Source: Aquiluna sp. KACHI24 (GTDB lineage Bacteria; Actinomycetota; Actinomycetes; Actinomycetales; Microbacteriaceae). From it: DNA of 64,000 nt. Made by a program: the position numbers and the translations under genes. Shown here piece by piece: positions 32,434 through 55,577 of this stretch. Position 1 is the first letter of the stretch, and each line of letters begins with the position of its first letter. The notes under the pieces were generated by a model that saw only the letters and a program-made list of their open reading frames with translations, was not told where the DNA came from and searched no databases. Location: assembly GCF_025997915.1 (NCBI RefSeq), contig NZ_AP026677.1:1302001-1366000 (forward strand). Direction: 5' to 3'.

Positions 32434-32685
32434 ATTTCCCCCCATACAAAAAAACGACTGGACGAAGCCAATCAAAGCCTCAGCTTGATGATCTCAAGAC
32501 TTCTCTCACCAAGCTACACCAATCGTGAATCTGGGAGGAAGAGTATTGAAATGGTTTGCTTTGCTTTTCGAAAGCAATCGATTTACTCAACACCCAGCAA
32601 GTCCCCCAAATTGCTGACAAAGGTTATTGCACCCCAAGAAACATTCGGCCATGACTTTGTTATCACTACCTGCAATACTCGAAGA

Positions 32686-35600: not shown

Positions 35601-36213
35601 ACTGGGTCACTACATGGGCGAGCACGAGATTCTTCCTGACACCATGGGTTACTTTGTTGAAGTTACAAGGCGCCTCCATCCCGAGATAAACAAGGTGGTC
35701 TCTTGGTTGGCCTATGAGAACAAACTTCGATCTCACGAGCTAACAAGGCAGTTCGTCATCGAGGGCGCTGCGCCAGGCATCCACACAATCGAACTTGATC
35801 ACCTCGGGAACTCAACATCATCAACCGAAGAGGTTGAAAAAGTGCTCGAGTTGGTTTCGAAACACATTGACGAGGTTGGCTCGGGAGAGATCCTCATTGT
35901 TGCACCCTACAACGCCCAAGTGAATGCGATCAGAAGAGCGTTGGACCAGGCGGGTTATGCGGATGTTCAGGTTGGCACCGTCGACAAGTTTCAGGGACGC
36001 GAGGGCCTCGTAGTGATTTACAGCTTCGCTGCCAGTTCATCCCAAGACTCACCAAGGGGTCTCGGATTCTTGCTTGATCGCAATCGCATGAATGTCGCCA
36101 TCAGCCGAGCAAAAAGCGTGTGTTATGTGGTGAGGTCTAAGCACCTGCTGAAGGCAAACTTCTCTTCGGTGGAGGATGTGAAATGCGTCAGCAGGTTGGC
36201 GGGACTGAATTGA
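32686..36213 (+). CDS. RecB-like nuclease, YprB-like RNase H and SF1 helicase fusion
   Basis: About 1175 residues from ATG 32686 (MRKIGELWSFNTRDLM); the open frame starts earlier but overlaps the divergent gene. Three parts are visible. First, a TM0106-type RecB-like nuclease (KPDFLI near 125, WDAKF near 161) ends in a Cys cluster (about 250-264, C-x4-C-x2-C-x5-C) that may hold Fe-S. Second, a YprB-like RNase H domain starts at FFDMEGFPYE near 355. Third, a UPF1-like SF1 helicase has Walker A GPPGTGKT near 823, DEAAQF near 926, FGDPQQLPQV, VDKFQGRE and NRMNVAISRAK. It should unwind and cut DNA or RNA. The context suggests a defence or repair role; the substrate is unknown. Confidence 0.88.
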   Translation: MRKIGELWSFNTRDLMRAASCKHCTTLSVAHALEIPAVEEKLAPYIEKQQQLRAEGKDKTLPMKYGAVFEETLISELKQLSPVGAVGRPEVDGDIEGTIELMRRGIPVIYQGGLRHEQGRTVFVGKPDFLIRNDWEFVFSAEGLLARQKFGVDFTGYSAWDAKFASNAKADYALQVAIYIEGLDALGLKAENSRHGLLLGSRTIVDFEEGEIVPATRLARDELVRTIESITSDGDAAVARKLDDFTWHCDSNSECSICEYPELCEDDRLATSDLLLVAGLGGSLRSKLIAAGLDTMDELAAAREKPHTVSLQTFERVRAQAQIQIRQRDADEPVHEILENPAIQYLPKQVDGDVFFDMEGFPYESDGGLEYLFGNWTRDGGFKGFWAHNREEEKQAFIDFMTWVVERMERFPGAHIYHYASYEQTALRRLSIRHGVMQSELADLQREGRFVDLYPIVLKSMRVGEPKYSIKNLESHYGFKREKIGDASVATAADSIVGYDEWRLHTKAANDESLDVETRAKSAKQAEDLLDALMRYNRDDVKSTQWLYDWLAGMPGACTRKPAPKAEATPEEEARILKAQEALAELERETENLFVPLEDWPWGQSEEMDKNAQTWETLANSILFYRREKVMHWVDIFVRLNQSVEDMVQDKGTLPVIEPEEVDTYQQQKNGPITRVYRCDLPDEAIYRPKPGDQIVVGFSRGGTTNDFHKGEVLEIDDWSFTFTRRTRKPEELDLEPYCIIENKEFPTESKEQSLVELVKGITANWGDPSAAAPSGPAALDLVMRRPPRMVDGRPLAQTLDAEYLPALIDSALRMDRTTMAVQGPPGTGKTYLASHLIKELLTQGKRVAVTANSHAAIENVLEACLDAGVESERIFKAPGNKNEPSELWNNFPEEMPYAGSVVYGATSFALCNKLARTHHFDYLIVDEAAQFSLVDTLAGSLIADNIILFGDPQQLPQVVKASHPGGVEESALGHYMGEHEILPDTMGYFVEVTRRLHPEINKVVSWLAYENKLRSHELTRQFVIEGAAPGIHTIELDHLGNSTSSTEEVEKVLELVSKHIDEVGSGEILIVAPYNAQVNAIRRALDQAGYADVQVGTVDKFQGREGLVVIYSFAASSSQDSPRGLGFLLDRNRMNVAISRAKSVCYVVRSKHLLKANFSSVEDVKCVSRLAGLN

Positions 36214-38087: not shown

Positions 38088-38400
38088 ACTTGCCCCCTGA
38101 GATGTCGATGCAAGCAGCCTATCTACCTTTCAGCACAAGTGTCCTAGACGCTGCAACTTCTCCACGGAAGCATTGCGACTTGACAGCAGGGAATCGTCAA
38201 GTCCGAGTCGACCAAGCTTGAATCATCAGATGCTGCCTAACGCTATTGTTTTTCTCGACCTAAGCAAAGTTGCATAAAGAAGTGTGTAAGTAGCCCATAC
38301 GGAAGAGCGAATTTCGAGCAGTCTTGGCTAGGTATCACAAACAATCTGAGAGGCAAAATTCTCAAGCCCGATAGCCCCAGAGATGTGGTTTACTTTTTTC
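38088..38400. other. 313-bp intergenic region with an inverted repeat
   Basis: Divergent control region between the CxxC protein and the exonuclease. It holds an inverted repeat with perfect 8-bp arms GACTTGAC (38177-38184) and GTCAAGTC (38196-38203) around 11 bases, possibly an operator. No gene is supported. Confidence 0.5.
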
Positions 38401-39348
38401 ATGGGGGAATTAGATTTTGTCGTTGTAGATTTTGAGACCACAGGTCTTCATGCAGATGCAATGCCAATCGAGATTGGCATGGTCAAAGTCACCGATGGGG
38501 CGGTGACAGATACTTTCCAAAGCCTGGTTCATCAGAATTGGGTAAGTCCAGAGGCCACAAACATCCATGGTTTATCAGTGGCGGACTTAGAGCTGGCACC
38601 GAGCGCGAGTGACCTGGTTGATCAATTTGCCAAATTCATCTCAGACCTGCCACTTGTAATGCATAACGCAGCTTTTGATCTTCGAATTGCAAAAGCGTCC
38701 GGTCTTTCTAGATCTCTTTTTGCTAACAAGGTTTATTGCAGTCTTCATCTCAGTAGAGCGACAGTAAATGCGCCGAATCATAAGCTCGCAACACTGGCAG
38801 AGACATTGAATCTGAATCAAAGTCCCGAACACAGGGCACTTGCAGATGCGTTAACCACTGCAGAGCTTGTTCTGGCCCTTCTAAACGAGAGAAGATTCAA
38901 GTCTTTACATAATCTGTACGTAACTTCTGGATTGTGGCCGGGACAAGTAGGTCCCGAAGGTTACAAGCTCCCTAAGAACGGCTCCAAGCAGAGCGCGCAC
39001 ATGACTGCCTCAATTCGGGAATCTATCGCGGCATCCATCACCGATGATGAGTGGGCGCCTCACCCCGAGTGGATTGGCAGGGAGGTCTGCTTCACAGGAA
39101 CCCTGGAGTCTATGGATCGCTCGGAGGCTCACAGATGGGCTATGCGATTGGGGGCAGAGCCACGCATGTCTCTCAACAAAAAAACACAGTTTGTAATTGT
39201 TGGGGGAAACCGGGGTTCATCGAAGTTGGACAAGCTACAGGAGTGGAGATCCAAGGGTTCCACCATCGTGGAAATTGACGAAGAGCAGTTCTTGGGATTC
39301 ATCGAAGAGGCGCAGCATCACAAAGGTCTTGCTGAAGAGGGGGTTTGA
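38401..39348 (+). CDS. DEDDh exonuclease with C-terminal BRCT domain
   Basis: About 315 residues from ATG 38401 (MGELDFVVVDFETTG). The ExoI motif is D10/E12, ExoII is in VMHNAAFDLRIA, and the final HRALADA near 143 gives the DEDDh His/Asp. This is the fold of DNA polymerase III epsilon proofreading enzymes. Residues about 228-305 form a BRCT domain (GREVCFTGTLESMDRSEAHRWAMRLGAEPR). Such exonuclease-BRCT proteins are thought to act in DNA repair. It is followed after two bases by a small gene on the same strand. Confidence 0.88.
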   Translation: MGELDFVVVDFETTGLHADAMPIEIGMVKVTDGAVTDTFQSLVHQNWVSPEATNIHGLSVADLELAPSASDLVDQFAKFISDLPLVMHNAAFDLRIAKASGLSRSLFANKVYCSLHLSRATVNAPNHKLATLAETLNLNQSPEHRALADALTTAELVLALLNERRFKSLHNLYVTSGLWPGQVGPEGYKLPKNGSKQSAHMTASIRESIAASITDDEWAPHPEWIGREVCFTGTLESMDRSEAHRWAMRLGAEPRMSLNKKTQFVIVGGNRGSSKLDKLQEWRSKGSTIVEIDEEQFLGFIEEAQHHKGLAEEGV

Positions 39349-40567: not shown

Positions 40568-41482
40568 CTATCTCCTCAAGGCAATCGACATTTGGCCTGC
40601 TATGGCGGCAACAACCGGGACGGCCACACTATTACCCAGCTGACGATAAATCCTCCCCCGCGACTGCGGAAGAATGAAGTCGCTGGGAAACCCCATAGCG
40701 GCCAGGCATTCTGAACGACTCAAAAGACGTAGGCCAGTTTCTCCATCTCTCACAAAGGTTCCGGTTAGTCTCTGAATTTTGTAGTAACTCGATACCAGCG
40801 TTTTAATTGGGCCAGTCCAGCCCTGATCAACAATTTCAGGCCTGCCGTCCGACAACTTGAAAACATAAGTTGATTGCAGATGCTTTGAAATAGAGTATCC
40901 AAGCGCTCCCCACTCCACGTGCGGCGCGAAGTCCGCAAGGTCCCCTGTGGGGACAGGGAAAGAAAATGATTCCAAGTCCTGTGGGTCCCGAAATCCCACG
41001 ACGTACAGCCTTCGTCTACGCTGTGGCACACCAAAGTCTGAACTGTCCAAAACCGCATGTTTAACGAAGTAGCCGAGCTCGCTAAGCACTTCCTGAATGG
41101 TGTTCCAGGTAGACCCGTTATTGTTGGTTAGCAGCCCTTTTACATTCTCAAGCAAAAAAGCCCTGGGCGTCGTCTCACTCAAGATTCGCGCAATCTCATA
41201 GAACAATGTCCCCTGCGTCTCGTGTTTGAAGCCTTGCTGCTTACCAATTGTTGAAAACGGTTGACAGGGAAAACCTGCAACTAGAACTTCAAATGGCGGT
41301 ATGTGTTTAGCGGGGATCTCGGTAATGTCACCGTGTGGCAAGTCATCGAAATTTGCCTGATAGGTGGCACGTGCATGAAGATCCCACTCGCTAGAAAATA
41401 CACAGTCGAAAGACTGGCTTTCAAAAGCTAAGCGGGTACCGCCAACCCCTGCGAAGAGATCGATAAACCTAAGAGACTCCAT
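40568..41482 (-). CDS. DNA C5-cytosine methyltransferase
   Basis: 304 residues from ATG 41482 with GGAAGAG upstream, overlapping the giant ATPase stop by 14 bases. All core motifs are seen: I FIDLFAGVGGTRLAF, IV GFPCQPFS with catalytic C73, VI LLENVKGL, VIII QRRRRLYVVGF, X QLGNSVAVPVV. It methylates C5 of cytosine in an unknown target sequence; the recognition region (about 195-250) is short. As the last gene of a four-gene operon with two ATPases and a nuclease domain, it most likely marks host DNA as self. Confidence 0.95.
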   Translation of the reverse strand: MESLRFIDLFAGVGGTRLAFESQSFDCVFSSEWDLHARATYQANFDDLPHGDITEIPAKHIPPFEVLVAGFPCQPFSTIGKQQGFKHETQGTLFYEIARILSETTPRAFLLENVKGLLTNNNGSTWNTIQEVLSELGYFVKHAVLDSSDFGVPQRRRRLYVVGFRDPQDLESFSFPVPTGDLADFAPHVEWGALGYSISKHLQSTYVFKLSDGRPEIVDQGWTGPIKTLVSSYYKIQRLTGTFVRDGETGLRLLSRSECLAAMGFPSDFILPQSRGRIYRQLGNSVAVPVVAAIAGQMSIALRR

Positions 41483-44400
41483 CTCTTCCAACTTCCAAGA
41501 AACTCGAGGCTTTGAGCTTCGTAACCATCAGTTTTTGACTACCGCCTGCGGAATCAAATCTCCTGTACAAGGCCTGACCCGTTTGGAAAGAATTGATTTC
41601 TGTCCTCAATTTTAGGTGATCGCCAACCGGGAAACCGAGCGCTGCGAGGTCACGTTGGTCAGGGTTCGTCACTCTAAATACACACCATTGACTGAGCATC
41701 TCCCTGTAGTCGGTATCGGTTTGAGCAAACTCAGCCATCCCCTGAGTTGCCATCATGATTCCATGTCCGAAACTGCGGCCTTCTCGAATGAGCTTGTCGA
41801 TTGCAAACAAGCCGAAAGGAATTATGTTGTGCGCCTCGTCAATGAAGACAATTTGATTTAGTTTTTGAGTCCCCTTCTGGTCATCGTACTCTCCAGCGGC
41901 ACTGTAGTTCGAGTACATGTTTTGGACAAGAGATTCCAAGACCGCGCTTACAGCGAACTTCGCCAAGAAGGGATCACCGAATGCGCCGAGGGCAGAAAAA
42001 TCAATGATTTGCTTTTTTCCTGGGGCAAAGAACTTATTGAGGTCATTCGCATCCTCTGTTGTCTCCGCAAAAAGCTTAATTAGTTCAACCGATTCGAACA
42101 AAGACGACACTACGTCTGCCCTGGGTGCCAGTTTGGCGTAAGCACTGCTAATTAGGCTCATAGGCGGAAATGGTCGGCCACTTTGGTCTGCTACCTGATA
42201 TGCCCTCTTGATGGCGGATGTAAGGTGACTCGCTTGTACCAACCCCATAGAAGGGGTCATTTTTTGAAGCATGCTCTTGAAGGATGAGGCTTTAGCACCG
42301 ATTGCGAGGTCTCTGTCGCCCCCGAAGCGCCCAAGATCTACCGAAGAGAGCTCCCAAAAATTAAGCCGCAATGCAGATGCCGGAATGGTTTCAAAGCCAG
42401 CCCTTGTCCGAAATCCATCATCTTCCTTCAGGCTGAAATCACCCTTGTAATCGAGAATGAGAATTCCGGGATGAGGCCATGGGGCTTGTGAACCAACGGC
42501 AAGGTCAAAAAGCACCCTCTTCATTAGCTGTGTTTTTCCAGATCCAGAGGCCCCAATAACGCCTAACTGAGGGACTACATCTCTCTTGCTTGGGTGGAAG
42601 TAATGTTTATTACCATGTTCGTCTACTCCAATTAGCGCAGAAAGACCAGGCAGGCATTCGTCACTGTTATGCAATTCGATAGGGTCAGTATCAGGTTCAA
42701 TTTCCTTTTTGTCATCCTCAGATTGGTCGTTATCATCAGCCCGCGAAAAATCGTCCTTATCACGTTCACTGGCGTTTACTTCTGAGGAATCTGTTGGTTT
42801 GGAACCAACCTGAGAAACATGCGATACGTCCAGAGATTTCAAGCTGGCTTGATCAAAAGCGATAGATCCCCACGACCCAGAGAGCTTTTCAAGCTCAAAA
42901 TTGTCAAAGACAACCTCTACCGAGGAAATGAGCACGTTGATGTTCTCTAAGGTGGCGATGTCCGCGGTCTTCTCTGACCTGAACTTCACTGCCTCAGAAT
43001 GGGCCAAGCTCCCAGTGAAATAATTCACCATGGGCGTTCCGAGCTCCAGCGTCACATTTCCAGAAGTTATGTTCTGCATCAACCTGGGAAGCACTTGGCT
43101 AAGGTTTGCCCTCTTTGGAGAGAGCTTTCTGGCTGTGTCTATCAAGGCGGCGAGGTTCGTAAGCCAAAGTGCCTTATCGCCTATTGAGGATAGTTCGCTC
43201 AAAATGTGCTCGTGAGACTCCAGAACGCCCCGCAAAAGTTTCAGTGAGGCTACAGCCTGCTGCTTGGCCTCATCAAGAGCCCGAGAATCTGCGCCTGGAA
43301 GGGTGTTCTGAGCTTGATCTAGACCGTACATCTTTATTTCAATCGGGATAAATCGAATCACGCTCTCGCTTACATCAATCGCTAGAAGATCAGCCTTTCG
43401 TCCCGACTCAGGTACAAATTCAGTACCTGCAAGACTCCTCAAAAAGCCGTCGCATGCATCCATCGGGATGACTAGCAGGTTTCGAGAGCTCTCTATAGAT
43501 TCCAGCACCTTGAATGCAGCATAGAAGCCAATGGCCCCGGATGTGTGAGTCCCCCCCATGGCAAGCAACGCCGCCAAACCCATGCCTCTACCGCCGAGTG
43601 TTTCCAGAATGCCTTGAGTTCTTTTCTTCACCTCGTCTTCAGACAGTTGAAGTGAGCTGAGCTTGGAAGCCAGCTGCAGTTTGAATGAATTCGGAACGCG
43701 AGCAATAGTCATGAATGCTCTTTTACTGACGCTGGGGTCTGCGCTGGAGCTATCCAAAAACGGTGGCCGCCACTCCCAGAGCATTTGGTTGGAACCCGAG
43801 CTTGCAGCGAGCAGCGCAGCCACGGTTGAGGGGCTCAGAAGCCCCTCGCCGCTAACGGTCCAATCCGCTGATCCATCCGCCAAAGCTGGTTTGTTGAGGC
43901 TGCTCAGTATTACGTCGCCCGAAGCGCCGGCTTCCACAACCTCTACCGCATTTCGAAACTGAATCCACCCTGTTTCAGAAGACAGTCGGGGAGCCAGTGA
44001 AGTAATTCCCTTGGCCTGACCCTCTACGTCAGCTATCGAGACAAACCGCCTGAACGGAATCTCGGCTAAAGTGCCTAATTTTGCTGCATTTCTTCGTTCT
44101 ATTCGAACGTGAACACCTGGGTCTTGCAACAAACGAATTTGGCAACGGTGAGAGCCCTGTGTGGTTGATTGGTAACGCCGCCAGCTGAATGGACGAGGTA
44201 ACAAACTTGATGCCGTTTGCAAAATTCTTTCCCTCGGAAATTCCCCCAATCTCGAGAGCGAATCCAAAACATGTATACCGCCAGGCAGGTCTTGCGAATC
44301 GCGTCCAACCGATAGCGCGACCTCATGGATTGCCTCGTCCAAATCGGTAAGGCGGGATGATTTTGAACCTTGGCTAACCGCAAGATCGATGACCAAGCTA

Positions 44401-46982
44401 GAAAGATGCGGATTAACTCTCCTGTAACTTTTCACAGCGGAGACCGAGGCCGATGCATTAAGCCCCGTAGAAGAATTTCCTGGGGCTGTAAAGCCGGCAA
44501 TGTTATTCGGGCCGACAACACCTTGGGCCGAGCTATTAATCGGTACGAGCATGGACCAGCCCAAGAACTGATAATCAGTGCCGTGGTCCGTCGGGACTGC
44601 CAACATGGAGGAACCCGCTTGTGGTGCAGGACCTATCATTGGAAAATCCCAACCCTCGATTGTCCCTGCTAGTTGTCGTGCCTCTTGCGCCTCCCAGAGA
44701 CCGTGCTCGACACTTGCAATCCAGGCCAGTCGAAGCGGATGAAGCGGGCTGAGTAGAACTGAGGAGCACAAGCCAGTCTCCGCATTCCAGACTGATGTAG
44801 AGAATGGGTATGAGGCCCAAAAAACTTCCGACTCCCCGAAATGATCCCTCGCAAAACTGACCATCTCCTCAAACGAGGTCAGAAGTTCATTCAATTTCGT
44901 GGAGTCAGAGTAAAGGTGCCTCCAGCTAGTCTTCGAAGGCCAATTTATGGCTCCGTCCATTTTGGATGTCAGGTTGATTTCAAGGTCTAACTGCTTCACC
45001 TGATCGACAAACTTAGAGACCACGGAGGAAGAGACAAAGTCTGGGTCCACGCCGAACCCTACATTCGAGAGCATTTGTCCCACCTCGCGAGCACACAGAA
45101 TGCCGTGCGGGAAATCCGTATTGATTGACTCTGCAACGCCCAAGGGCTGGTTTTCCTCCAGTGCAACATGGAAGAGACATTTCAGCCATGACTCATTGGA
45201 GATGTTTTCCGACAGCAAATCTTCAAGACGGCCACGTATCGATGTGGCGTTCTCGGGAGACGCCGCAATCGTGGGCAGCATCTCCTTACTAATGGCTGCG
45301 ATGATTGGGGAATGAGTACTCCTGGACTGAGATTCTTTAAACAACTGAATAGAGCAATTCCCGGAGTCGACCTGAATCTGTTCCGAAATAGAAATAGATG
45401 CCCCAAAAAACTCAGAATCAATCAGAGTCGGAAACTCTGTCCCCTCAAACTTCGCTGAGTTGCCCCTAACGAGCAAGCCCAAAGACGTGATTGAAGAATC
45501 GATGCCAACCGATGAGGGTTCGGGAAGGAATTGCTTCGCATTTACTTTTGGAGAGGCTTTGGTGGAATCAAAGAAGCCGAGATAGCTAAGCTCACCCCAT
45601 GACGCTGCCAGAACGAGCTGGGTTTTTCCGGTTTGTTGTACCAGCAGGCTCAGAGGGTTGCTTGGAGGTAACTCATAGGTCATGGTTGCCTGAATCAAGA
45701 ACTCCTGACCAAGTTTTAGAGCGAGTGCATCTGAACCAACTAAGTGGCCGCGAATTCGCACTCCGGAAATGTCACACACCACTTCCTCAGTAATCCATTC
45801 ACAGCCATCCTGGGCTACGTCAAATTCAATCTCGAGGTTTGCGCTCGGAAGCGCTTGTGCATCGTCCCTCGGCTTAAGGTAGACAAGGATAGTGTCAGAT
45901 CTCAACCCATAATCAAACTCCCTAAGGGGCACAAGGTAGGGAGATTGGTCCGCACTTTGGGGCCTAATTCCTAAGGAGCACCCCCGGTCCTCGAGCTGGA
46001 GTTTTTCAATTCCTTGGGCACGGACGAGTGACCGCGGAGTTAGTAAATCTGACTGTGGGTAAGATCCTATGAAACCTCGATCAACAATGGATGAACCGAT
46101 CGCATTCAAGAACGTAAGAACAGAATCGCCGTTCAAAGCAAAGGCATCAACGTAGTGCTCTTCGTCAATGTGGAGCATGGTGCGATCGAAATGATCCGAT
46201 TCCGCCACACGATTCGCAATGAATTGTGCTGAAGTTACGGTTTTGTCCCATGAGCTCCACCAGTCTCCGTAGGCGCGAAGGACCATTTTTGCAGCGGCCC
46301 CGACTTCTCCCAAAAAGAGGCCACCGGAAGATGGATTCGGCAGCCCAAATGCTGGGTAAATTGCCTGTTCCACCCCTTCACAGTCAGCAAACGACGCGAT
46401 TTTTACAAGCCTCTCGAGGGAGGCCTCCACGAATTCAAACCATAGGACATTCCAGGGTTTGATTGAATTAGTCGAGTCGCTCTCCAAGATCGCAGACACA
46501 AGACTCAGAGCATGGGAAAGACGATCCTCACTAAGGCTCCTATCGAAGTCGTAACCATACTCAGCTTGCAACTGACCCAGGAGCTGAACGGACGCGCCTG
46601 AGATGTCGCTGATCTTCAGGTGCGAGGCTTCCGGCTTAGGAAAGCTGCCCCGCAGTAAAACTTTGGATGCATTTGATATCGACTCCACACTGGAAGGGCC
46701 AGAGATGATGAGAAATCTTCTTTCTTCCTCGGAATCGCAGCGAAAGTTCACTAGTTCGAACTCCGACATCGTGAAAGCAGGATCCCCGTCTAAATGGAAC
46801 CCGTGCAAAAATGCGACAGCCTCTGGCGAGCCGTCCGAGCGCTTGATCTCATCATTTATCAATTTGACAACATCGGCAATAAACTCCGTCGAAACGCCAG
46901 ATGGGAACTCAAGCCTCCACGTTTTTGCCGAAGCGGAAGTCATGATCGCCCCAGACAAAGCCCGTCTAAAAAAAGTCGACAA
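41469..46982 (-). CDS. giant PD-(D/E)XK nuclease and HerA/FtsK-like ATPase protein
   Basis: About 1837 residues; the TTG start at 46982 has GGAG before it, and an ATG 13 codons later is an alternative. Residues 1-1150 are mostly unassigned. Near 1190-1215, KADLLAIDV followed 13 residues later by IPIEIKM is a PD-(D/E)XK nuclease signature. The C-terminal ATPase has Walker A GASGSGKTQLMKR near 1480, LILDYKGDF, Walker B IVFIDEAHNI near 1710, and MMATQGMAEF, as in HerA/FtsK DNA translocases. It resembles DptH, the large ATPase of phosphorothioate restriction, in size and plan. It probably senses, translocates on and cuts unmodified DNA; that function is inference. It ends overlapping the methyltransferase. 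Confidence 0.85.
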   Translation of the reverse strand: MSTFFRRALSGAIMTSASAKTWRLEFPSGVSTEFIADVVKLINDEIKRSDGSPEAVAFLHGFHLDGDPAFTMSEFELVNFRCDSEEERRFLIISGPSSVESISNASKVLLRGSFPKPEASHLKISDISGASVQLLGQLQAEYGYDFDRSLSEDRLSHALSLVSAILESDSTNSIKPWNVLWFEFVEASLERLVKIASFADCEGVEQAIYPAFGLPNPSSGGLFLGEVGAAAKMVLRAYGDWWSSWDKTVTSAQFIANRVAESDHFDRTMLHIDEEHYVDAFALNGDSVLTFLNAIGSSIVDRGFIGSYPQSDLLTPRSLVRAQGIEKLQLEDRGCSLGIRPQSADQSPYLVPLREFDYGLRSDTILVYLKPRDDAQALPSANLEIEFDVAQDGCEWITEEVVCDISGVRIRGHLVGSDALALKLGQEFLIQATMTYELPPSNPLSLLVQQTGKTQLVLAASWGELSYLGFFDSTKASPKVNAKQFLPEPSSVGIDSSITSLGLLVRGNSAKFEGTEFPTLIDSEFFGASISISEQIQVDSGNCSIQLFKESQSRSTHSPIIAAISKEMLPTIAASPENATSIRGRLEDLLSENISNESWLKCLFHVALEENQPLGVAESINTDFPHGILCAREVGQMLSNVGFGVDPDFVSSSVVSKFVDQVKQLDLEINLTSKMDGAINWPSKTSWRHLYSDSTKLNELLTSFEEMVSFARDHFGESEVFWASYPFSTSVWNAETGLCSSVLLSPLHPLRLAWIASVEHGLWEAQEARQLAGTIEGWDFPMIGPAPQAGSSMLAVPTDHGTDYQFLGWSMLVPINSSAQGVVGPNNIAGFTAPGNSSTGLNASASVSAVKSYRRVNPHLSSLVIDLAVSQGSKSSRLTDLDEAIHEVALSVGRDSQDLPGGIHVLDSLSRLGEFPRERILQTASSLLPRPFSWRRYQSTTQGSHRCQIRLLQDPGVHVRIERRNAAKLGTLAEIPFRRFVSIADVEGQAKGITSLAPRLSSETGWIQFRNAVEVVEAGASGDVILSSLNKPALADGSADWTVSGEGLLSPSTVAALLAASSGSNQMLWEWRPPFLDSSSADPSVSKRAFMTIARVPNSFKLQLASKLSSLQLSEDEVKKRTQGILETLGGRGMGLAALLAMGGTHTSGAIGFYAAFKVLESIESSRNLLVIPMDACDGFLRSLAGTEFVPESGRKADLLAIDVSESVIRFIPIEIKMYGLDQAQNTLPGADSRALDEAKQQAVASLKLLRGVLESHEHILSELSSIGDKALWLTNLAALIDTARKLSPKRANLSQVLPRLMQNITSGNVTLELGTPMVNYFTGSLAHSEAVKFRSEKTADIATLENINVLISSVEVVFDNFELEKLSGSWGSIAFDQASLKSLDVSHVSQVGSKPTDSSEVNASERDKDDFSRADDNDQSEDDKKEIEPDTDPIELHNSDECLPGLSALIGVDEHGNKHYFHPSKRDVVPQLGVIGASGSGKTQLMKRVLFDLAVGSQAPWPHPGILILDYKGDFSLKEDDGFRTRAGFETIPASALRLNFWELSSVDLGRFGGDRDLAIGAKASSFKSMLQKMTPSMGLVQASHLTSAIKRAYQVADQSGRPFPPMSLISSAYAKLAPRADVVSSLFESVELIKLFAETTEDANDLNKFFAPGKKQIIDFSALGAFGDPFLAKFAVSAVLESLVQNMYSNYSAAGEYDDQKGTQKLNQIVFIDEAHNIIPFGLFAIDKLIREGRSFGHGIMMATQGMAEFAQTDTDYREMLSQWCVFRVTNPDQRDLAALGFPVGDHLKLRTEINSFQTGQALYRRFDSAGGSQKLMVTKLKASSFLEVGRDGVS

Positions 46983-46990
46983 ATTTGCTC

Positions 46991-48448
46991 CTAGAATGCC
47001 GTGTCTATGTTCAATCCAATGTCTGCGTCAGCAGACCCCCGAGCCAGTCCTGCCCTCTCCAGTTCGGAAACAAGTTCAGATGTCGGGGGATTGAGCCCCA
47101 TTGAGTTGAGTTCGAAAAGGAGGTTGCCCATGTTGATCGACTCCCTTGGTGCCCTACTGGAAAGGCTCACGACAGCGGCCAACCATTCTGTTCCTGGGTC
47201 AGGCACTCTGAAGCGACCACCCTTTAGGCTTAGTAGCCCGAAGTGATCAGCTCCCTCGCCGAATTCTTTTCTAATGTTTAGGGAATATGTAACAGCTTCA
47301 ACTGTCGAGGTGTGCCGAGTGGTGGGCAGATTCTTGGCCGCAGCCAGTGATTTCAAAAAATTCGCATTTCGACGAAGGGCTTCTAGGCCAACTTCCAGTG
47401 AAACATCGGCTAAACCCATTTCCTTCACTGTGGTTGAAAGCAATGAGCTAATTTCACTGCCCGTTCGCACCTTCTTGTCGATGTACCCCTTGACCCCTCT
47501 CAGGGAGATAGGCAAATCTGAGGGGGCCCATGGTAGCAACAATGCCCCGCGCATAGACGAAAAGTTGAACTGCTGCGATTCACGGGAAAGAATATTCTCT
47601 GCAACTGTGTGATACCAGGCTGCCTCCCACAAATAAGTCATCCCGAAAGCTGTTCTTAAGACTGCACTCGCCCAATCTGTCCAAACCCTCGGGGGTAATG
47701 CATCGATCCATTGTTCACTCGTGAGATTCTTCCAAGACCGAGTGAACCAGCCCATCGGACTCTGAATCATGAGCTCAGGGTAGGCCTGCCCAATGGCCCA
47801 TGGCTCTGATTGACTCGACCTTGAATTTTTCCGAACTCGAGGACCGAACCCCTTGGTACTATCCAAGGCACGGTCCAATGCCTTGAGGTGCATGTTTCTA
47901 TCTAGCATCCTCTCTGATGCTCTTAGCCAACTCTCGCCGATGGAGTCCTCAGAGTCAACCAAGCCAAGTTGCCAAATCTGCTCAAACATAAGTGCGAAAT
48001 TCGCGTTGGTTCCCTTCATCCCTTTCACAGTCTGGAGCAGAGCCAAAGATGGCGAAAGCGGGCTCACGGCTATCGAATCAGACTTGATGGATGTTGTACC
48101 GGTAACCCCAGATAACAACGCCTTCACGAAATCACTACTTATTAGGAGCTGCTCTCCCACTGAGCCTCTGGATAGAGCAAATCCTGCATCCCGCAGATTG
48201 CTTGCAAATCCAGATGATGGTTCAACTAACCTCTCCCAGCTGTACTCAACCTTTCCACCCCGCTGCTCTCCGGAGGCGTTTTGATCTGAGTGCCTCTGCT
48301 GCCTTCTGAATTTTCGGCGAACGTCCGCGGATACGCCTTCTACATCGAAAAGCCCCCAGGCTATGGAAGTCAGAAAGATCTCGGGAGAAGTTGGGTATTC
48401 GGGTCGGTTTAGCTTTGGAAATAAGTCCCTCACTTTACATTCATTCAT
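46991..48448 (-). CDS. unknown middle subunit of methyltransferase/HerA operon
   Basis: 485 residues from ATG 48448, overlapping the upstream ATPase stop by eight bases; the next start lies nine bases downstream of its stop. No catalytic motif is visible. It is a mixed alpha protein with many Trp and Ser residues. Short segments such as FLTSIAWGLFDVEG and ALLLPWAPSDLPISLRGVKG look conserved-like. Position and size match DptG in dptF-dptG-dptH loci, so it may be a scaffold between the two ATPases; this is position-based only. Confidence 0.75.
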   Translation of the reverse strand: MNECKVRDLFPKLNRPEYPTSPEIFLTSIAWGLFDVEGVSADVRRKFRRQQRHSDQNASGEQRGGKVEYSWERLVEPSSGFASNLRDAGFALSRGSVGEQLLISSDFVKALLSGVTGTTSIKSDSIAVSPLSPSLALLQTVKGMKGTNANFALMFEQIWQLGLVDSEDSIGESWLRASERMLDRNMHLKALDRALDSTKGFGPRVRKNSRSSQSEPWAIGQAYPELMIQSPMGWFTRSWKNLTSEQWIDALPPRVWTDWASAVLRTAFGMTYLWEAAWYHTVAENILSRESQQFNFSSMRGALLLPWAPSDLPISLRGVKGYIDKKVRTGSEISSLLSTTVKEMGLADVSLEVGLEALRRNANFLKSLAAAKNLPTTRHTSTVEAVTYSLNIRKEFGEGADHFGLLSLKGGRFRVPDPGTEWLAAVVSLSSRAPRESINMGNLLFELNSMGLNPPTSELVSELERAGLARGSADADIGLNIDTAF

Positions 48449-50963
48449 CTGATGACCCCACAAACACATCACGTAAGTCGTCACCCAACACCAATGTGAA
48501 ATTAACGCTTCTTTGATTTGAAGACGAAGACAATTTTGTTGCCCCCACTCGGTCCAACCTGGGATCAACGTATGAGGATTGATCTGTAACTCCATGTGTC
48601 ATTCCGGAGGATGAGATGACTTCCCTAAGCAAACCAAAGTCAACTCGAATTCTTCCAAGTTCAAAACCGAGCTCTTTTAGAACTAGGAATAAATCTGGAC
48701 CAGCCTTTACCGTTTCGAGATGCACATTGTCGAGGCTTGTCGCAAGTCTTGGATTTGCCCGAGATTGGAGGCCGAGAGGGGACAGTTTCGAATCCAAAAG
48801 AGGTATGAGTGACGGGGCATCACCATCGCCAGGAATCATCTTTGGCTTGAAAAGAGAGTTGAATCTTGGGAGTATTCCTCCCTCGCTCGGAATAGCAGGC
48901 GATGCATCCCAAAGCAACAGCCAAATTGTCGCCTCCTCGGCACCTGCGCCAAACCCGCAATATGTCGCCAGCATTCGGGAAAGGTGCCGAGCGTACCTCG
49001 CAGTAATTGCACTCGAGCGATCCTCCAAGAGATATCCGTCCGACAATAGAGACGAATACATTTCGTCGACTGCGAAGTCGACTTGGGACAAGGATTCAAC
49101 AAAATCTGCCAGTCCTTGCTCAAGCGCAATTTTCAGAATCGACTCGTCTCGATCTATCGATTGGAAGCAATCGAGTAAGACTTCGATGGGTTGTTTGACC
49201 CTAGTTTTTGCAGCTTGAGCTATCGTGCTTTCAGGCGTGGAGCCAAGGAGCGGGTCGACGGCATGAAGCAACCTCAAGGCGGGATCCTGTGGATTGGCTT
49301 CGAAAGATGCAAAGAGTGAGCCAGGCGAACGATATTGGACGATCAGGCTAAATGATTCGATCGAGTCTTGCCCAGAAGACAGTGAATTCAGTGAAACAAG
49401 GGCTTTTTGCAGGTCGACCAGGGCGATTTGATCGACCAAAGGGCCAAAAATGTACCGAGTGATCAAGGACCAAAAAGCGCGGTAGTTGAGCCTAGTTCCA
49501 GAATTGATTTCGGCAATTCTGAGCAACTGCATTAATCCGGCCACATGTTGTGAATTGGCCAAGTTTTTCAGATTTCCGACAATCGGATTCGTGCTGTCCA
49601 AGGAATACTCTGCAGCAAACACGTCGGACGGAATCGCATTGGCTAGTCTCGAAACTAGTTGTCCCAGGGGCGCTTCAAGTCTGTAGTTCAGATCCTGGCC
49701 GTGCGAAACATTCCCAAGTTTTTGATTCTTAGAAGATATGCCGTCCCAGCCCAATTCATTTACTTCGACAAGGGGGCGAAGCTCTAACAGCGAGCAAACG
49801 TCCATGTACAGCGCTACGAAAATCCTGACATATCCAGCTGGGTCCGAGACGCGAGCGGCCCTTAGGTAATCGCTAGATGCGAGTATGTCGAAACCATTCC
49901 ACCCTTCCTTGCTTGGGCGCTGTGAAAGCCATAGCAATAGGTCGTAGTTGAAACGGTTCTGTTCTACGGAGGTCGAATTCAATTCATCGGCAAACACACC
50001 GCGGTTGGCACAAACCAGCATGTGCATTTCTCCTCGCGATGCCCTCTCGATATCATTCAGAACGGAATCTTGACTTCCATACTGCTTGATCGAAGCGTCG
50101 TTTATGAAGACAATCCCCCGCCCGATTGGAATGTCCATAGATCGAAGGTTTGTTATTCCAGTTGATGGGAAGATGTGACCCAACGAAGTCAGAAAGTCTT
50201 TTGCGAAAGTGGATTTTCCTGAACCTGGACCACCTACGAGAAAAAAGGAGACAGGTGTGCCGTTCGGGGTTCGAATTTCCGACTCAAACAACTCTGCCAT
50301 TTCGACTAATCCTGGACTCCATTCACCCAGAAACTCAGGTGGCAAGGATGTGCTGGCGGGAGACTCCGCCGCAAGGCTTCCGCCGTAAGATCGAGACCAG
50401 ATTGCTCCTACAAGATCGCTGATCTTCCCAGGGTAAGGAGCTTCCACTTGATTGGTTCGACGTTCATCTGGGACGAACGGCACAGGATCGACTGCCTGCA
50501 CGTCAATCGAAACATCGCTCTGGTGCGATCCAAGGAAGGACTTAACAATCCGCTCAATGTGAAGGTGCGAGGCAGTTGAGATGTTAAGAAATCCCAATTC
50601 TCGCCTCCTGCGGGACCAAAACACCAGCATGAGGTCACCATCTTCAAACGTCTCTTCAAGACCAGCCACCTTCATGATTCTCTGTTTATCCGCAATCGCT
50701 TTTTGGAATAGCTCGACAGTGACCTTGAATTCTGCCCCAGTGGCATCTAGGAGCGACCCATTCTGGGTTACCGCACTCGCATACCCGGGCTCTTGATCCG
50801 CGAAGTTATGGATGCCATTTTGAAGCAAAAAGAGGATTCCACTCGAATCTAAAGGAATAGATTCTCCAGCCAGGAATCTATGTAGAAAGAAATCAACGCC
50901 CAGGGCCTGGATGAGCAGCACGCGATTTAGCTCAGACTCGCTGATCTCAATCTCAAAACTCAC
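48441..50963 (-). CDS. P-loop ATPase, first gene of methyltransferase/HerA operon
   Basis: 840 residues, GTG start behind GGGGGG. The Walker A is GGPGSGKSTFAKDF near residue 248. A Walker-B-like GRGIVFINDASI lies about 40 residues on, then LVCANRGVFADEL, a sensor-like element. The first 200 residues and last 400 are unassigned helical regions. The order (ATPase, unknown, HerA) and the finding of an ATPase that loads or licenses a HerA partner resemble DptF. It likely gates the activity of the giant nuclease-ATPase. No homology beyond the P-loop can be claimed by eye. Confidence 0.8.
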   Translation of the reverse strand: MSFEIEISESELNRVLLIQALGVDFFLHRFLAGESIPLDSSGILFLLQNGIHNFADQEPGYASAVTQNGSLLDATGAEFKVTVELFQKAIADKQRIMKVAGLEETFEDGDLMLVFWSRRRRELGFLNISTASHLHIERIVKSFLGSHQSDVSIDVQAVDPVPFVPDERRTNQVEAPYPGKISDLVGAIWSRSYGGSLAAESPASTSLPPEFLGEWSPGLVEMAELFESEIRTPNGTPVSFFLVGGPGSGKSTFAKDFLTSLGHIFPSTGITNLRSMDIPIGRGIVFINDASIKQYGSQDSVLNDIERASRGEMHMLVCANRGVFADELNSTSVEQNRFNYDLLLWLSQRPSKEGWNGFDILASSDYLRAARVSDPAGYVRIFVALYMDVCSLLELRPLVEVNELGWDGISSKNQKLGNVSHGQDLNYRLEAPLGQLVSRLANAIPSDVFAAEYSLDSTNPIVGNLKNLANSQHVAGLMQLLRIAEINSGTRLNYRAFWSLITRYIFGPLVDQIALVDLQKALVSLNSLSSGQDSIESFSLIVQYRSPGSLFASFEANPQDPALRLLHAVDPLLGSTPESTIAQAAKTRVKQPIEVLLDCFQSIDRDESILKIALEQGLADFVESLSQVDFAVDEMYSSLLSDGYLLEDRSSAITARYARHLSRMLATYCGFGAGAEEATIWLLLWDASPAIPSEGGILPRFNSLFKPKMIPGDGDAPSLIPLLDSKLSPLGLQSRANPRLATSLDNVHLETVKAGPDLFLVLKELGFELGRIRVDFGLLREVISSSGMTHGVTDQSSYVDPRLDRVGATKLSSSSNQRSVNFTLVLGDDLRDVFVGSSDE

Positions 50964-51464: not shown

Positions 51465-53216
51465 ATGAAATTCATTCCCGAGTCGCCCAGAGGTGGGGCC
51501 AATGTTTCTGAGGTCAGGCTCTTCGAGGCTCTGAAAGCTCATGGGGCAGAGACAGATTGGACAGCAGTTCACTCGATCTTGATAGGCAGAGACCCAGACG
51601 TATTAGTTGGTGAGGCTGATTTCTTTGTCTTGATACCAAACAGAGGAATCGTTGTAATTGAAGCTAAGGCTCCGACTCAGGTGACCTATAAGTCTGGTGA
51701 TTGGTTTCTTGAAGGCACGCCCAATCCTAAGAAAAACCCCCTGGATCAAGCGAACCGAGCAAGGGGTGCCCTGAGAAAATTCATAGCAGAGCTTGGTATG
51801 GATGATGAAGTTCCTATCGCTCGCATGGTCTGGTTCACTTCATTGGGGCGACACCAGTTCGACCCTGTGTCCCGTGGAGACTTTCAGTTCCACGAGTGGG
51901 AGCTTGGCTGGAAGCAAGACCTAGCAGCACCCGTGAAGGCTATCGAAAACGTCTTGGACAACTTCCTGAGGCACTACTCCAAATCAGAAACCATCAAGAT
52001 ATCCCCAGGGCACTTCACCCAGGATGTATCAGAAAGAATCAGCTCTGCATTATTCGCAGACTTCACAGTGTCTGAGGATCCCAGGGATAGAGCGAAAGAG
52101 CGGGCAGACGAGCGTCGACGATTGCTTGCGGACCAGTTCAAGATATTGAATGCGATAGAGGACAATCCCCACATTTATCTTGAGGGTGCTGCGGGCTCAG
52201 GAAAAAGCTTCCTTATATCGGAAGCCGCAATGAGGTCCCGTCGCGACGAAAAACGCACGCTTGTGACCTGTTGGAATGTTCTAATGGCCGAAGAGTTGGC
52301 TCGGCAAATACCCCATTCAAACGATCTGAATTTTGTTGTCAAGGATATCAACTGCCTAATGCTTGAATTTGCCGGACTGAAAAGTAACCCGAGCGATGCG
52401 AGCTCTGAGTGGTACGAGGAGGAGTTGCCGGAGCTAGCCCTGGCTGGCCTGAAAAGAAAGCCATTTCTTGGAAACTTCAGCGCAATCTTGATCGATGAAT
52501 TCCAAGATTTAGTGGGGAAGCTCAAAGTTCTCGAGTTTCTCTTGTCACTTGGGAAGGGGCTGGGACTCAGCCAAACTAACCTCGTTTTAGCAGGAGATGA
52601 GCGGCAGCAGATCTTGGTGGATCGCCGAGGCTCTATGGGGTCTTTCGCAACAGCTAAGGCTTTGTTGCCTGGGATTGTGAAATACAAGTTGAAAGCAAAC
52701 ACCAGAATGAGCCCAAAGCTTCACAGAGAAATGCAAAAACTTCTCGGCATCAAGTTGGAAGTGGATGAGCACCTCATAAAGTCCGATCAAATCGGCGGAC
52801 TCACTGTTATCGAAACAACTCAAAAGCAGCAGGCTACAGCGTTGAAAGATTGCCTAAATGACCTCTTGCTGTCCTACTCCTCTTCAGAGATTCGCGTTCT
52901 CTCACCGTTTGGTGCTCAACGTTCACTAATAGGAAAGTTGTTTGAATCAGAGGTAAGGGCCAACGATGAGGTTTGGTTGAAATCCCATGCCAGGCATGCG
53001 TCGACAAACGGGGAAATTCGATGGAGATCGATTTCCAAGTTCAAAGGGCTCGAAGATGAGGTTGTCGTTATCACCGACATTGGTCAGGAGTCCGCGGACT
53101 TTTTTGCAGAACGGGGGCAGCCAATAGCAGACTGGCTCTATGTCGGCATTTCAAGGGCTCGACACAGGTGCATTTTGATTACAACAACGCCGATCGATGA
53201 GCTCTTGAGGCAGTAG
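51465..53216 (+). CDS. NERD-domain nuclease fused to SF1 helicase
   Basis: 583 residues with CAGGGGG six bases before the ATG. Residues 1-130 are a NERD domain (SEVRLFEAL, GEADFFVLIPNRGIVVIEAKA), a nuclease fold with D...E-x-K. From about 225 is a UvrD/Rep-like helicase: Walker A EGAAGSGKS near 240, ILIDEFQDL near 342, LAGDERQQI, ISKFKGLEDEVVVI and YVGISRARHRC. It is divergent from the methyltransferase/HerA operon. NERD-helicase fusions occur in defence islands; a single-gene nuclease-helicase defence role is plausible. Confidence 0.88.
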   Translation: MKFIPESPRGGANVSEVRLFEALKAHGAETDWTAVHSILIGRDPDVLVGEADFFVLIPNRGIVVIEAKAPTQVTYKSGDWFLEGTPNPKKNPLDQANRARGALRKFIAELGMDDEVPIARMVWFTSLGRHQFDPVSRGDFQFHEWELGWKQDLAAPVKAIENVLDNFLRHYSKSETIKISPGHFTQDVSERISSALFADFTVSEDPRDRAKERADERRRLLADQFKILNAIEDNPHIYLEGAAGSGKSFLISEAAMRSRRDEKRTLVTCWNVLMAEELARQIPHSNDLNFVVKDINCLMLEFAGLKSNPSDASSEWYEEELPELALAGLKRKPFLGNFSAILIDEFQDLVGKLKVLEFLLSLGKGLGLSQTNLVLAGDERQQILVDRRGSMGSFATAKALLPGIVKYKLKANTRMSPKLHREMQKLLGIKLEVDEHLIKSDQIGGLTVIETTQKQQATALKDCLNDLLLSYSSSEIRVLSPFGAQRSLIGKLFESEVRANDEVWLKSHARHASTNGEIRWRSISKFKGLEDEVVVITDIGQESADFFAERGQPIADWLYVGISRARHRCILITTTPIDELLRQ

Positions 53217-53297
53217 ACACGGGCTTTCGGATTTTGGGGGACTTGACTTTGGCGGCACCAAGAGTAAAAAGTGGCATTAGGCGAGCGGTGTAGGAAG

Positions 53298-55568
53298 ATG
53301 CTGAGAATTCTGCTTTGGCTAATGGCCATAGTCGTGACGGGCCAGACTATTGCCAACTTCTGGGAGGGCGATAAAGCCAATGGAGTCACTGGACTATTTC
53401 TTAGCCCTCTTTTTATCTGGGGAGCTTGGGCCGTGACACGAAGGCACAATCGAAAAAAGAGCAGGCCTGCCGTTCCTACCTCAGGGGAATCGCATGACTC
53501 TCGAAAAGCTGAACTGGCAAAGGCTGTCGGGGATTTTAGAGAAGCCCTGAGACAAGCCCGGGAGGACTTCAGGGATCTTTTTGCAGAATTCAAAAAGGCG
53601 TTCGCTCAGGATAACAGCAACGCTGCAACGAATCCCAGGAAGGGTGCGAACAGGGGGCCGAGCTACAACGAGAAAAGGTTCGAGCCCGCCATGGGAGCAG
53701 CACGAAGGCTGCGGAAAATTGCGACAGACTTTGAAGACCGACGAAACAGCGTCATCCTGAATCTACAGCCAATGCGGGTAACAAGAGGAACCAAAAGTCA
53801 GCTTTACTCGGGGCAAGGTGGCCTGATCATTCGCCGGGACAGCATCCTTGTTGGTTACTCGAATGAGAGATCGAGAAATCCTCAGATGAAGCAGCTGGAT
53901 AAGAAGTGGTCCAAAACTCTTGGACCCGTGCCAACCAGCCCAACTGTTTATTATGAGGACCACTCCTACGTTGAGTTTGAAGCCTTGAACCTTGAAGATC
54001 ACATCCTCTTCAGCGCCTTTTGGCAAGTGCTTGATGGCGATGTGTTCCAGCTACAGGATTACGCGCGTTCGAAATTTGCGACAAAGCTTCGAGCAGCTGC
54101 GAGATACATCGAGGAGAATCGCGAAAAAATCATTTCGGAGAATGGTGCGCTAAGCCTGGATGGTCTGGACTACTCCACGCTGTCCGATGATGAAGACGTA
54201 CTCAAGGAGTTTTCGCAGCCCAAAATCGGATCAATTATTGAGGGCTACAAGCTGGTACGAGAGCTTGGAGGCGGGGCATTTGGATCGGTGTTTCTTGCTC
54301 AAAGCATTGAGGACAAAGACGCCATGGTGGCGTTTAAGCTCATGAAACCAAGACCAGGTCCTGAATTCAAGGCCGGTCAAGTTGGATTCATGCACCAAGC
54401 TGAAGAGTTTCTAGCCGAGGCGAAGAACAGCCTGAACTTCACCGCTGCGCCATATGTAATGAATGCCCACGAAATGGGGATGTATCCATGGCCTTGGATT
54501 GCATATCCACTTGTTAGGGGTGGGACCGTCAAAGAAGTATCTGCGTATCGAGGAATCTCCGACAGGGATTGGTGGGAGCTCGCACATGACCTAGTTTCCG
54601 GTCTCAACTCGATCCATCAAGAAGGACTGGTCCACCTAGACATCAAGCCCGACAACATAATGCGTCATGAGGACAGGTTTATGATCATGGACCTCGGGGT
54701 CTCCATGGTCACGGGATATGAGTTTGGACAATTACCTTCCGGGACGATCGTTTACATGGCACCTGAGATTCTGGAGGCCCGTCTCAGAGGGGACAGGTCT
54801 TTCAAGCCCTCGGGGGTCGCAGACGTGTTCTCAGCTGGACTCACATTGCTTTGGTGCCTAACCGGTCGTTACCACATAGACCCTAGGACGATAACTAGTC
54901 AGGCAACCGCCGAGGAGCAGGTCTTCAGAAGCCTCCTGAAAAATGGGGTTGAGATTTTTGACCTCCCCGCAGAAAAGCAAGCTCTCCTGAAAAAGATGCT
55001 TCAGGTCGATCCAAAGTTACGTGCGACCGCCAATGAGTTGCTCTTTGACATAGCGCCTAAAGTCGACATGGACCTAAAGGTACAGCAAGTCGAGCGGGCT
55101 AAATTCGCTCTCTCTGAAGGAGCATTAGGGCAACTTGAGGGTGGCGAAAATGCGAGATTCAAAGAGCGAATCGATGGGCCTCTAAAAACTTGGATGCCTT
55201 TTCAGAATCAACTGCGAGCAATCACAGAAGAAATCCGACCAGCGTTCTTTAGTGCTGATATCTACTTCAATTCCGGTCGAGAGTGGATGTATGTTCAAGC
55301 TCTCTATGCTGCGGGCGGCTGGGTGTTGGAGTGCCAATCGGAAGTGTTCATGGACAGTGGACTCAAGGACTCACAGAAGCAAAAACTCATTGCTTTGGGC
55401 TGGAACCCGCCAACTGAATCCAGTCCAAATTACGAACGCATAGTGGACATGATCTCTGCGGAGAAAATGGCAAATCTATTTGTCGATGCCCTTGAGCAAG
55501 CCTACGGCGTGCTTCTTTCCGAGATTTCATACATCGAGTTCAAGATCCAGAACAAGAATGCCTACTAG
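53298..55568 (+). CDS. membrane Ser/Thr protein kinase with TY-Chap-like C-terminus
   Basis: About 756 residues from ATG 53298 (AGGA close before it); a GTG at 53271 is the alternative. Two N-terminal membrane spans (about 2-22 and 31-48) precede a charged linker and an unassigned domain (about 110-290). The kinase domain spans about 315-590: LGGGAFGSVFLA, VAFKLMK, catalytic VHLDIKPDN near 444, and DLG in place of DFG (IMDLGVSM). The C-terminal about 150 residues (TWMPFQNQLRAITEEIRPAF, WVLECQSEVF) look like a TY-Chap/YbjN-like domain. It phosphorylates unknown targets. It is ten bases ahead of a gene whose product may have the same C-terminal type. Confidence 0.85.
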   Translation: MLRILLWLMAIVVTGQTIANFWEGDKANGVTGLFLSPLFIWGAWAVTRRHNRKKSRPAVPTSGESHDSRKAELAKAVGDFREALRQAREDFRDLFAEFKKAFAQDNSNAATNPRKGANRGPSYNEKRFEPAMGAARRLRKIATDFEDRRNSVILNLQPMRVTRGTKSQLYSGQGGLIIRRDSILVGYSNERSRNPQMKQLDKKWSKTLGPVPTSPTVYYEDHSYVEFEALNLEDHILFSAFWQVLDGDVFQLQDYARSKFATKLRAAARYIEENREKIISENGALSLDGLDYSTLSDDEDVLKEFSQPKIGSIIEGYKLVRELGGGAFGSVFLAQSIEDKDAMVAFKLMKPRPGPEFKAGQVGFMHQAEEFLAEAKNSLNFTAAPYVMNAHEMGMYPWPWIAYPLVRGGTVKEVSAYRGISDRDWWELAHDLVSGLNSIHQEGLVHLDIKPDNIMRHEDRFMIMDLGVSMVTGYEFGQLPSGTIVYMAPEILEARLRGDRSFKPSGVADVFSAGLTLLWCLTGRYHIDPRTITSQATAEEQVFRSLLKNGVEIFDLPAEKQALLKKMLQVDPKLRATANELLFDIAPKVDMDLKVQQVERAKFALSEGALGQLEGGENARFKERIDGPLKTWMPFQNQLRAITEEIRPAFFSADIYFNSGREWMYVQALYAAGGWVLECQSEVFMDSGLKDSQKQKLIALGWNPPTESSPNYERIVDMISAEKMANLFVDALEQAYGVLLSEISYIEFKIQNKNAY

Positions 55569-55577
55569 GAGTGCGAC

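Follow-up and report, generated by a model that had tools for sequence, protein, structure and literature searches.

What function is served by the four genes that occupy positions 40568 to 50963, on the minus strand, of a 64,000-nucleotide stretch of the Aquiluna sp. KACHI24 genome? This stretch, hereafter the window, corresponds to bases 1302001-1366000 of contig NZ_AP026677.1, the single contig of a 1.46-Mb genome, whose small size and kinship point to a freshwater member of the Microbacteriaceae. An earlier note on the same DNA had regarded the genes, here named A to D, as a candidate undescribed defence system, a Dpt-like restriction unit that reads 5-methylcytosine (5mC) instead of phosphorothioate. 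Our analysis identifies A, B and C as a divergent F-G-H module, a branch of the DndFGH (DptFGH) superfamily that is coupled to a DNA cytosine-5 (C5) methyltransferase, gene D. We estimate a probability of about 0.75 that the four genes constitute a restriction-modification defence in which FGH damages DNA devoid of the 5mC mark. This reading is supported by sequence homology for F and H and a fold match for G, by gene order and operon-like spacing, by the conservation of catalytic residues and by the linkage of the module to a methyltransferase, while the response of FGH to the methyl mark, and its direction, would follow by analogy with related systems.

All four open reading frames are open and uninterrupted, in the order A-B-C-D. 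Gene A (48441..50963, minus strand) encodes the DptF-like F subunit of 840 amino acids (aa) from a GTG start, gene B (46991..48448, minus strand) the DptG-like G subunit of 485 aa, gene C (41469..46982, minus strand) the DptH-like H subunit of 1837 aa from a TTG start, and gene D (40568..41482, minus strand) the methyltransferase of 304 aa from an ATG. Alternative starts exist for B (534 aa from 48595) and for D (307 aa from a TTG at 41491); for B, the 485-aa start lies no more than a few residues from that of its counterpart in a related locus, L006 (survey loci are cited by their L numbers). With the 485-aa B and the 304-aa D, genes A and B overlap by 8 bp, B and C are separated by 8 bp and C and D overlap by 14 bp, exactly the tight coupling that had been described in the earlier note. 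Its calls of a P-loop ATPase for A, a nuclease-HerA protein for C and a C5 methyltransferase for D were borne out by the results given below; for B the reported length stands, whereas the label of an unknown protein no longer applies since B is DptG-like by fold.

The most extensive likeness to the Dpt proteins was found in C. A profile of the 35 H proteins found in this branch, compared with that of 29 DptH proteins, gave a probability of 100 (expectation value (E) 2.4e-68) over 1079 columns that take in the nuclease and HerA parts. Scans of ten proteins encoded between 32 and 56 kb of the window against Pfam, PADLOC and NCBIfam, together with a search of solved structures, gave matches of C to PADLOC DndH (1.6e-28), to the HerA family DUF87 of Pfam (3.3e-6) and to the HerA domain of DptH, 7es4 (2.9e-11). 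A PD-(D/E)XK nuclease lies at about residues 1130-1250 and a HerA/FtsK ATPase at about residues 1450-1830, and the domains of the N-terminal half are without clear assignment. The nuclease residues D1198, E1215, K1217 and Q1242 were invariant in all 40 aligned H proteins, which comprised 31 of the 35 from the methyltransferase-linked branch and nine of the 29 DptH proteins, and so was the HerA Walker A motif. The module is divergent: C of the window is 13-15% identical to each of the nine DptH rows, and A, B and C were unmatched by the models of DptFGH proper (TIGR03236-8), which do match DptF, DptG and DptH of Massilia. A structural model of C residues 590-1400 (42783..45215, minus strand) reached a predicted local distance difference test score (pLDDT) of 77.4 and a predicted template modelling score (pTM) of 0.84; its best matches in the PDB were weak S-adenosylmethionine-methyltransferase-like folds (E 0.037 or worse), which give no more than a hint here of the dead-methylase domain that DndH is described as having.

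For the F subunit, comparison of the 35 branch proteins with 29 DptF proteins returned a probability of 95.9 (E 5.9e-9, 220 columns). A carries the Walker A motif GGPGSGKS at residue 244 and IVFINDA at residue 284, and the combination of a Walker A with an [NQ]DA motif was present in all 35 F proteins of the branch. The N-terminal stretch of A (residues 1-185) is variable and without a Pfam match, and showed no resemblance to the extension of the L006 protein; variable N-terminal domains have also been described for DndF. As to the ND motif, its strand-2 form is given as typical of DndF in the text consulted from Rakesh et al. (PMC10853773). A itself gave nothing above the curated cut-offs of Pfam and NCBIfam and nothing in PADLOC at E <= 1. 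Its assignment as DptF-like was thus made by profile and motifs.

The G subunit was more difficult to place. B was unmatched in the Pfam, PADLOC and NCBIfam scans, and a sequence search of solved structures with the B-family profile found none. An AlphaFold2 model built from 31 rows (pLDDT 73.8, pTM 0.81) was mostly helical and closed at its C end with a small domain of helix and strand (model residues 421-482). Among 350,542 PDB chains, the best match to this model was DndG, 7exx (probability 0.97, E 0.025), with the next chain at a probability of 0.10; the fold match is weak (TM scores 0.36 and 0.39), and the triple winged-helix fold expected of a G subunit is at most suggested by it. In view of this weakness, we take B as DptG-like by fold only. 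Sequence comparison appears to be a blunt tool for this subunit, because the DptG profile also misses the G proteins of two further loci described below, L098 (E 0.76) and L099 (E 0.22). B-family G proteins compared with the G of L098 gave E 0.0053 at a probability of 6.8, and 16 cross-family control comparisons gave E values of 0.086 or worse.

To place the operon among its relatives, an alignment of six H proteins was used to scan 84,980 species genomes, and the best 80 of 88 confirmed loci were kept. To these were added eight loci from 12 plasmid records matching C (one of the four omitted being a second record of S. fredii GR64), two loci from the same order, four partial copies and the window, giving 95 sequences. 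Five were dropped, namely L001-L004, which duplicate parts of the window, of L005 and of L006, and L035, which comes from the same genome as L006. The remaining 90 comprised 64 complete F-G-H loci and 26 incomplete ones. Loci were picked by H only, and the counts cover what was fetched around each match, up to about 10-12 kb per side.

According to the best H model, the window's branch accounted for 35 of the complete loci and the DptFGH branch for the other 29. An adjacent C5 methyltransferase was present in 35/35 of the former and in 0/29 of the latter; Vsr was found in 28/35 and 0/29, respectively. Conversely, any of DndB, DndC and DndD occurred in none of the 35 but in 21 of the 29. Seven of the 35 loci had seeded the FGH models, six of these seven also the methyltransferase model, and the other 28 agree without exception (28/28). 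The loci are related by descent, so no probability is given for the linkage. In a second survey an alignment of the B family was used on 396 Actinomycetota and on 369 genomes from the class to which P. aeruginosa PA7 belongs: two hits were obtained in the former, both already known, and three in the latter, PA7 included. The two new loci, L130 and L131, both carry F, G and H with an adjacent C5 methyltransferase. Thus the co-occurrence survey and the profile and structure comparisons with Dpt parts, both proposed in the earlier note, have been carried out, and a Dpt-like unit associated with 5mC instead of phosphorothioate is supported, the reading of the mark being the inferred part. Consistent with this, DndC is absent from the window's genome; among 29 other genomes of the branch it was above the cut-off in one and below it in a second.

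The cassette is present in Actinomycetota, Pseudomonadota and Myxococcota. The F and G proteins of L012 and L018 and the G of L061 have no family of their own in Pfam, PADLOC or NCBIfam. Among the F and G proteins scanned (A, B and those of L012, L018 and L061), the only match to a defence model was a weak one of the L018 F to SspF (6.7e-4). In Pseudoalteromonas sp. HL-AS1 (L013, 7761-13134) the H gene is split into frames of 164 and 1623 aa. A protein annotated as a UvrD-helicase on a plasmid (L010, 10147-13158), next to conjugation genes, has a matched part that resembles the DptH HerA. Close relatives of C were also sought in viral contigs, where three stretches fitted the pattern and none was confirmed.

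We then considered the mark itself. D matches the C5 methylase family PF00145 at 1.1e-84, is M.HhaI-like (4.7e-61), is the only PF00145 protein of its genome and carries all five methyltransferase motifs looked for; by simple patterns, each motif is present in 31 to 35 of the 35 branch methyltransferases. D was matched by 4112 plasmid records, the nearest being 53-57% identical, and the surroundings of four close relatives were inspected. One, on plasmid pMsp22 of Acinetobacter sp. NEB149, adjoins an annotated MspI-family nuclease; a second, in Lactococcus petauri, adjoins an HpaII-family nuclease; and those of Bacillus subtilis and Desemzia incerta adjoin a hypothetical protein of about 200 aa. 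D is 53-54% identical to the MspI- and HpaII-neighbouring enzymes. Within residues 179-250, placed as the target-recognition part, identity is 56% (pMsp22) and 52% (L. petauri), and in a core at 195-246, chosen on the alignment, 34 of 52 residues (65%) are identical to both. MspI and HpaII both act at CCGG. Because the two relatives adjoin nucleases of these families, the target of D is predicted to be CCGG.

On these grounds we propose that D would methylate host DNA at its site, predicted to be CCGG, and that the mark would protect it. The F-G-H proteins would form a complex that meets DNA, in which the HerA/FtsK motor of C is predicted to translocate or pump DNA. The predicted role of G is DNA binding, and F is predicted to be a nucleotide-binding sensor or assembly ATPase; the PD-(D/E)XK domain of C would nick or cut DNA without the mark. 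Vsr repairs deaminated 5mC, and its presence in 28/35 loci agrees with steady cytosine methylation of the host genomes. The opposite arrangement, in which FGH would attack methylated DNA and the methyltransferase would mark invaders or set a threshold, seems very improbable: the host would carry the methylation too, and the distribution of Vsr again fits steady host 5mC. Phosphorothioate-sensing systems such as SspE do exist, as the consulted text of PMC8092258 indicates, but the relatives DndFGH and SspFGH are described there and in a review (PMC12707154), as far as their consulted parts go, as damaging unmarked DNA and harming cells without the mark. Under the preferred reading, restriction of unmarked DNA, 5mC at the predicted tetranucleotide could be added or removed in the tube, which would make self/non-self discrimination by DNA-pumping nucleases directly testable.

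The relationship between the methyltransferase and FGH was then analyzed by pairwise identity across the 35 loci (595 pairs). The F, G and H parts correlated closely with one another (rank correlation 0.88-0.96), and the methyltransferase correlated with them at 0.63-0.66. In L031 and L043, F, G and H are 63, 71 and 72% identical, and identity between the methyltransferases is 32% if gaps are ignored and 20% if they count, the L031 enzyme being cut by the edge of its fetched stretch. Similarly, F, G and H of L030 and L026 are 66-69% identical and their methyltransferases 34% without gaps and 24% with gaps. The methyltransferase gene also varies in placement, being upstream of FGH, downstream of it or encoded on the other strand. 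Since similar FGH modules exchange their methyltransferases, the choice of site may rest with the methyltransferase. Two readings follow: FGH may read methylation while having little sequence specificity itself, or specificity may come from the methyltransferase. A stronger version, in which FGH has no sequence specificity and the exchangeable methyltransferase serves as the site-recognition subunit of the restriction complex, is a tentative idea that we consider rather unlikely; if it held, one cutting scaffold could be retargeted by a methylase swap. A scan for FGH hotspots tracking such swaps, in which nine related loci of the 35 were compared, revealed no single sharp one; small excesses lay at F 119-179, G 119-179 and H 1086-1146.

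The same swaps could be taken to mean that the methyltransferase neighbours FGH as a solitary or selfish enzyme and that FGH stands alone, sensing invader nucleotides or DNA without reading 5mC. This has been proposed for DndFGH by Rakesh et al., in whose text, as consulted, DndFGH is said to have no inbuilt modification module and is called stand-alone since it is often found without sulfur-marking genes (PMC10853773). We consider it unlikely for the branch described here, where a methyltransferase in varied placements is linked to every complete locus and to none in the sister branch, and where even the loci that underwent a swap retain a methyltransferase. A methyltransferase beside every complete branch locus seen rather suggests that a simple mark of another kind can serve such 'decoupled' machines.

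Several observations weigh against a 5mC-dependent FGH restriction system. The separate evolution of the methyltransferase from FGH is not predicted by a fixed site-specific pair, and by the simple patterns one or two motifs are missing from four of the 35 methyltransferases (L029, L030, L039 and the edge-truncated L031), which makes their activity less sure. The link of G to DptG is thin, given that the sequence profile comparison (E 0.042, at the C end) was not significant, that 92 of the 485 residues of the B model fall under pLDDT 50, and that the fold match has low TM scores. Vsr is absent from the window's own genome. In 200 kb of host DNA no depletion of CCGG was seen (observed/expected ratio 1.03, with 1.01 in one sister genome), a result that neither supports nor refutes the predicted site. 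Lastly, no methyltransferase was found in the 26 incomplete loci, and six of these (L027, L038, L046, L072, L093 and L094) have branch H models as their best match and lack F, G and methyltransferase. They consist of fragments, broken copies and partial matches, the last mostly to the HerA region, with L027 and L038 at contig ends; L072, L093 and L094 each encode a HerA-like protein of about 525 aa and have DndC, DndD or both within the fetched stretch.

The coupling to cytosine methylation is not confined to this branch. A PADLOC SspF search of 296 Actinomycetota found three loci, two of which (L098 and L099) were inspected. L098 (5415-15599) contains, in order, a C5 methyltransferase, an SspF-like protein, G, H and Vsr, and extends the coupling to a second, SspF-type FGH; the B-family model misses the G in the genome of L098. 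L099 (2649-14111) encodes a DndF-like protein of 1411 aa, NERD- and kinase-like by eye in its N-terminal part, followed by proteins in the G and H positions, and no C5 methyltransferase was found there by model. In a quick tree with long branches, the rows with a C5 methyltransferase need one change, rows without either label not being counted; the window's row has a branch of 6.5 and its placement is unsure. L098 and L099 form a pair apart from the main group, so the tree does not establish that the coupling arose only once.

Compared with known systems, the operon is closest to DndFGH/DptFGH, with which it shares the F-G-H order, a P-loop F with an ND motif, probably the G fold, and an H with nuclease and HerA/FtsK ATPase. 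It differs in that its branch has a C5 methyltransferase, and often Vsr, in place of dnd genes, and in that F and G of the window match none of the named models. SspFGH likewise consists of a Walker A protein, a middle protein and a large FtsK-like last protein, and the published example restricts unmarked DNA but is paired with sspBCD; A, B and C had no Ssp match in PADLOC at E <= 1, sspBCD not being searched for in the genome by models of their own. Type II restriction-modification of the MspI/HpaII kind shares with the operon the 53-54% identical methyltransferase and the predicted site, with the difference that three large proteins stand in the nuclease's place; no MspI/HpaII-type or other site-specific type II endonuclease was among the matches listed for the ten window proteins.

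Methylation-associated defence (MADS) combines base methylation with a HerA-like protein, as the operon does, whose mark would, however, be C5 and come from one methyltransferase gene. From the set mad1-mad8, only mad8 (the HerA part of C) and mad6 (a kinase gene at 53271) were matched, apart from weak P-loop matches elsewhere. As a separate observation, PADLOC mad7 matches an annotated DptG (L007, 6798-8114, 4.3e-72), which suggests a DptG-like part in MADS. With DISARM, Druantia and BREX the operon shares a C5 methyltransferase (DrmMII, DruM) or an ATPase plus methylase. Of the DISARM models, only DrmMII was among the matches listed, matched by D, and drmA/B, druE, pglZ, brxL and the dnd modification genes were absent from those listed for the ten proteins, which for all of these but druE agrees with the earlier note. 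DISARM, BREX, Druantia, MADS and the named Dpt and Ssp models were rejected as the identity of the operon, A and B having no component match. In CxC/DndE systems a cytosine methylase replaces phosphorothioation, as here, but these are built on an ABC ATPase and DndE, not FGH, according to the text consulted from Rakesh et al. (PMC10853773), where cytosine methylases are reported only with CxC/DndE systems. A candidate composed of Z1, PD-(D/E)XK and cytosine-methyltransferase proteins (PMC9523054, as far as consulted) is made of other parts. A search of the open literature by title and the start of abstracts found no published pairing of an FGH module with a C5 methyltransferase, absence from print not being established thereby. 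We found no existing name for the recurring branch, which is probably an unnamed kind of restriction-modification. The novelty proposed earlier would apply to the C5-linked pairing and not to the parts, which correspond component for component to DndFGH, B by fold only.

In the surroundings of the operon, a TM0106-family RecB-like nuclease fused to a helicase is encoded nearby (32374-36213), and the gene immediately upstream of a methyltransferase-FGH-Vsr cassette on Rhizobium leguminosarum plasmid pRL31b4 (L012, 1-2072) is annotated as coding for a TM0106-family protein. Divergent from the operon, positions 51465-56231 encode a NERD-domain helicase, a protein kinase with a TY-Chap3 domain, whose kinase part matches MAD6, and a 217-aa protein of unknown nature; these are likely to be other defence genes. 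H was found in 3/198 genomes of the order and 1/398 of the family, the window's own counted in both. This patchy distribution, the NERD-helicase and RecB-like neighbours, the conserved nuclease residues and the DndFGH homology all speak against a DNA-processing or element-maintenance module (segregation or transfer) with an attached methylase, not serving defence. Even though HerA/FtsK motors do serve segregation and transfer and several copies are on plasmids, we regard that explanation as the least probable of those considered.

Beside the operon, nothing that could be a controller gene was seen except open reading frames of 32-76 aa without evidence. Promoter and terminator scans were not used: the former yielded 3 sites against a shuffle mean of 8.0, below the shuffles, and the latter 23 against 13.6, above them. 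A DnaQ-type exonuclease fused to a BRCT domain is encoded at 38383-39348. Across positions 30000-58000 of the window the G+C content is about 0.50-0.52, down from about 0.54, in keeping with an acquired defence island in this 1.46-Mb genome.

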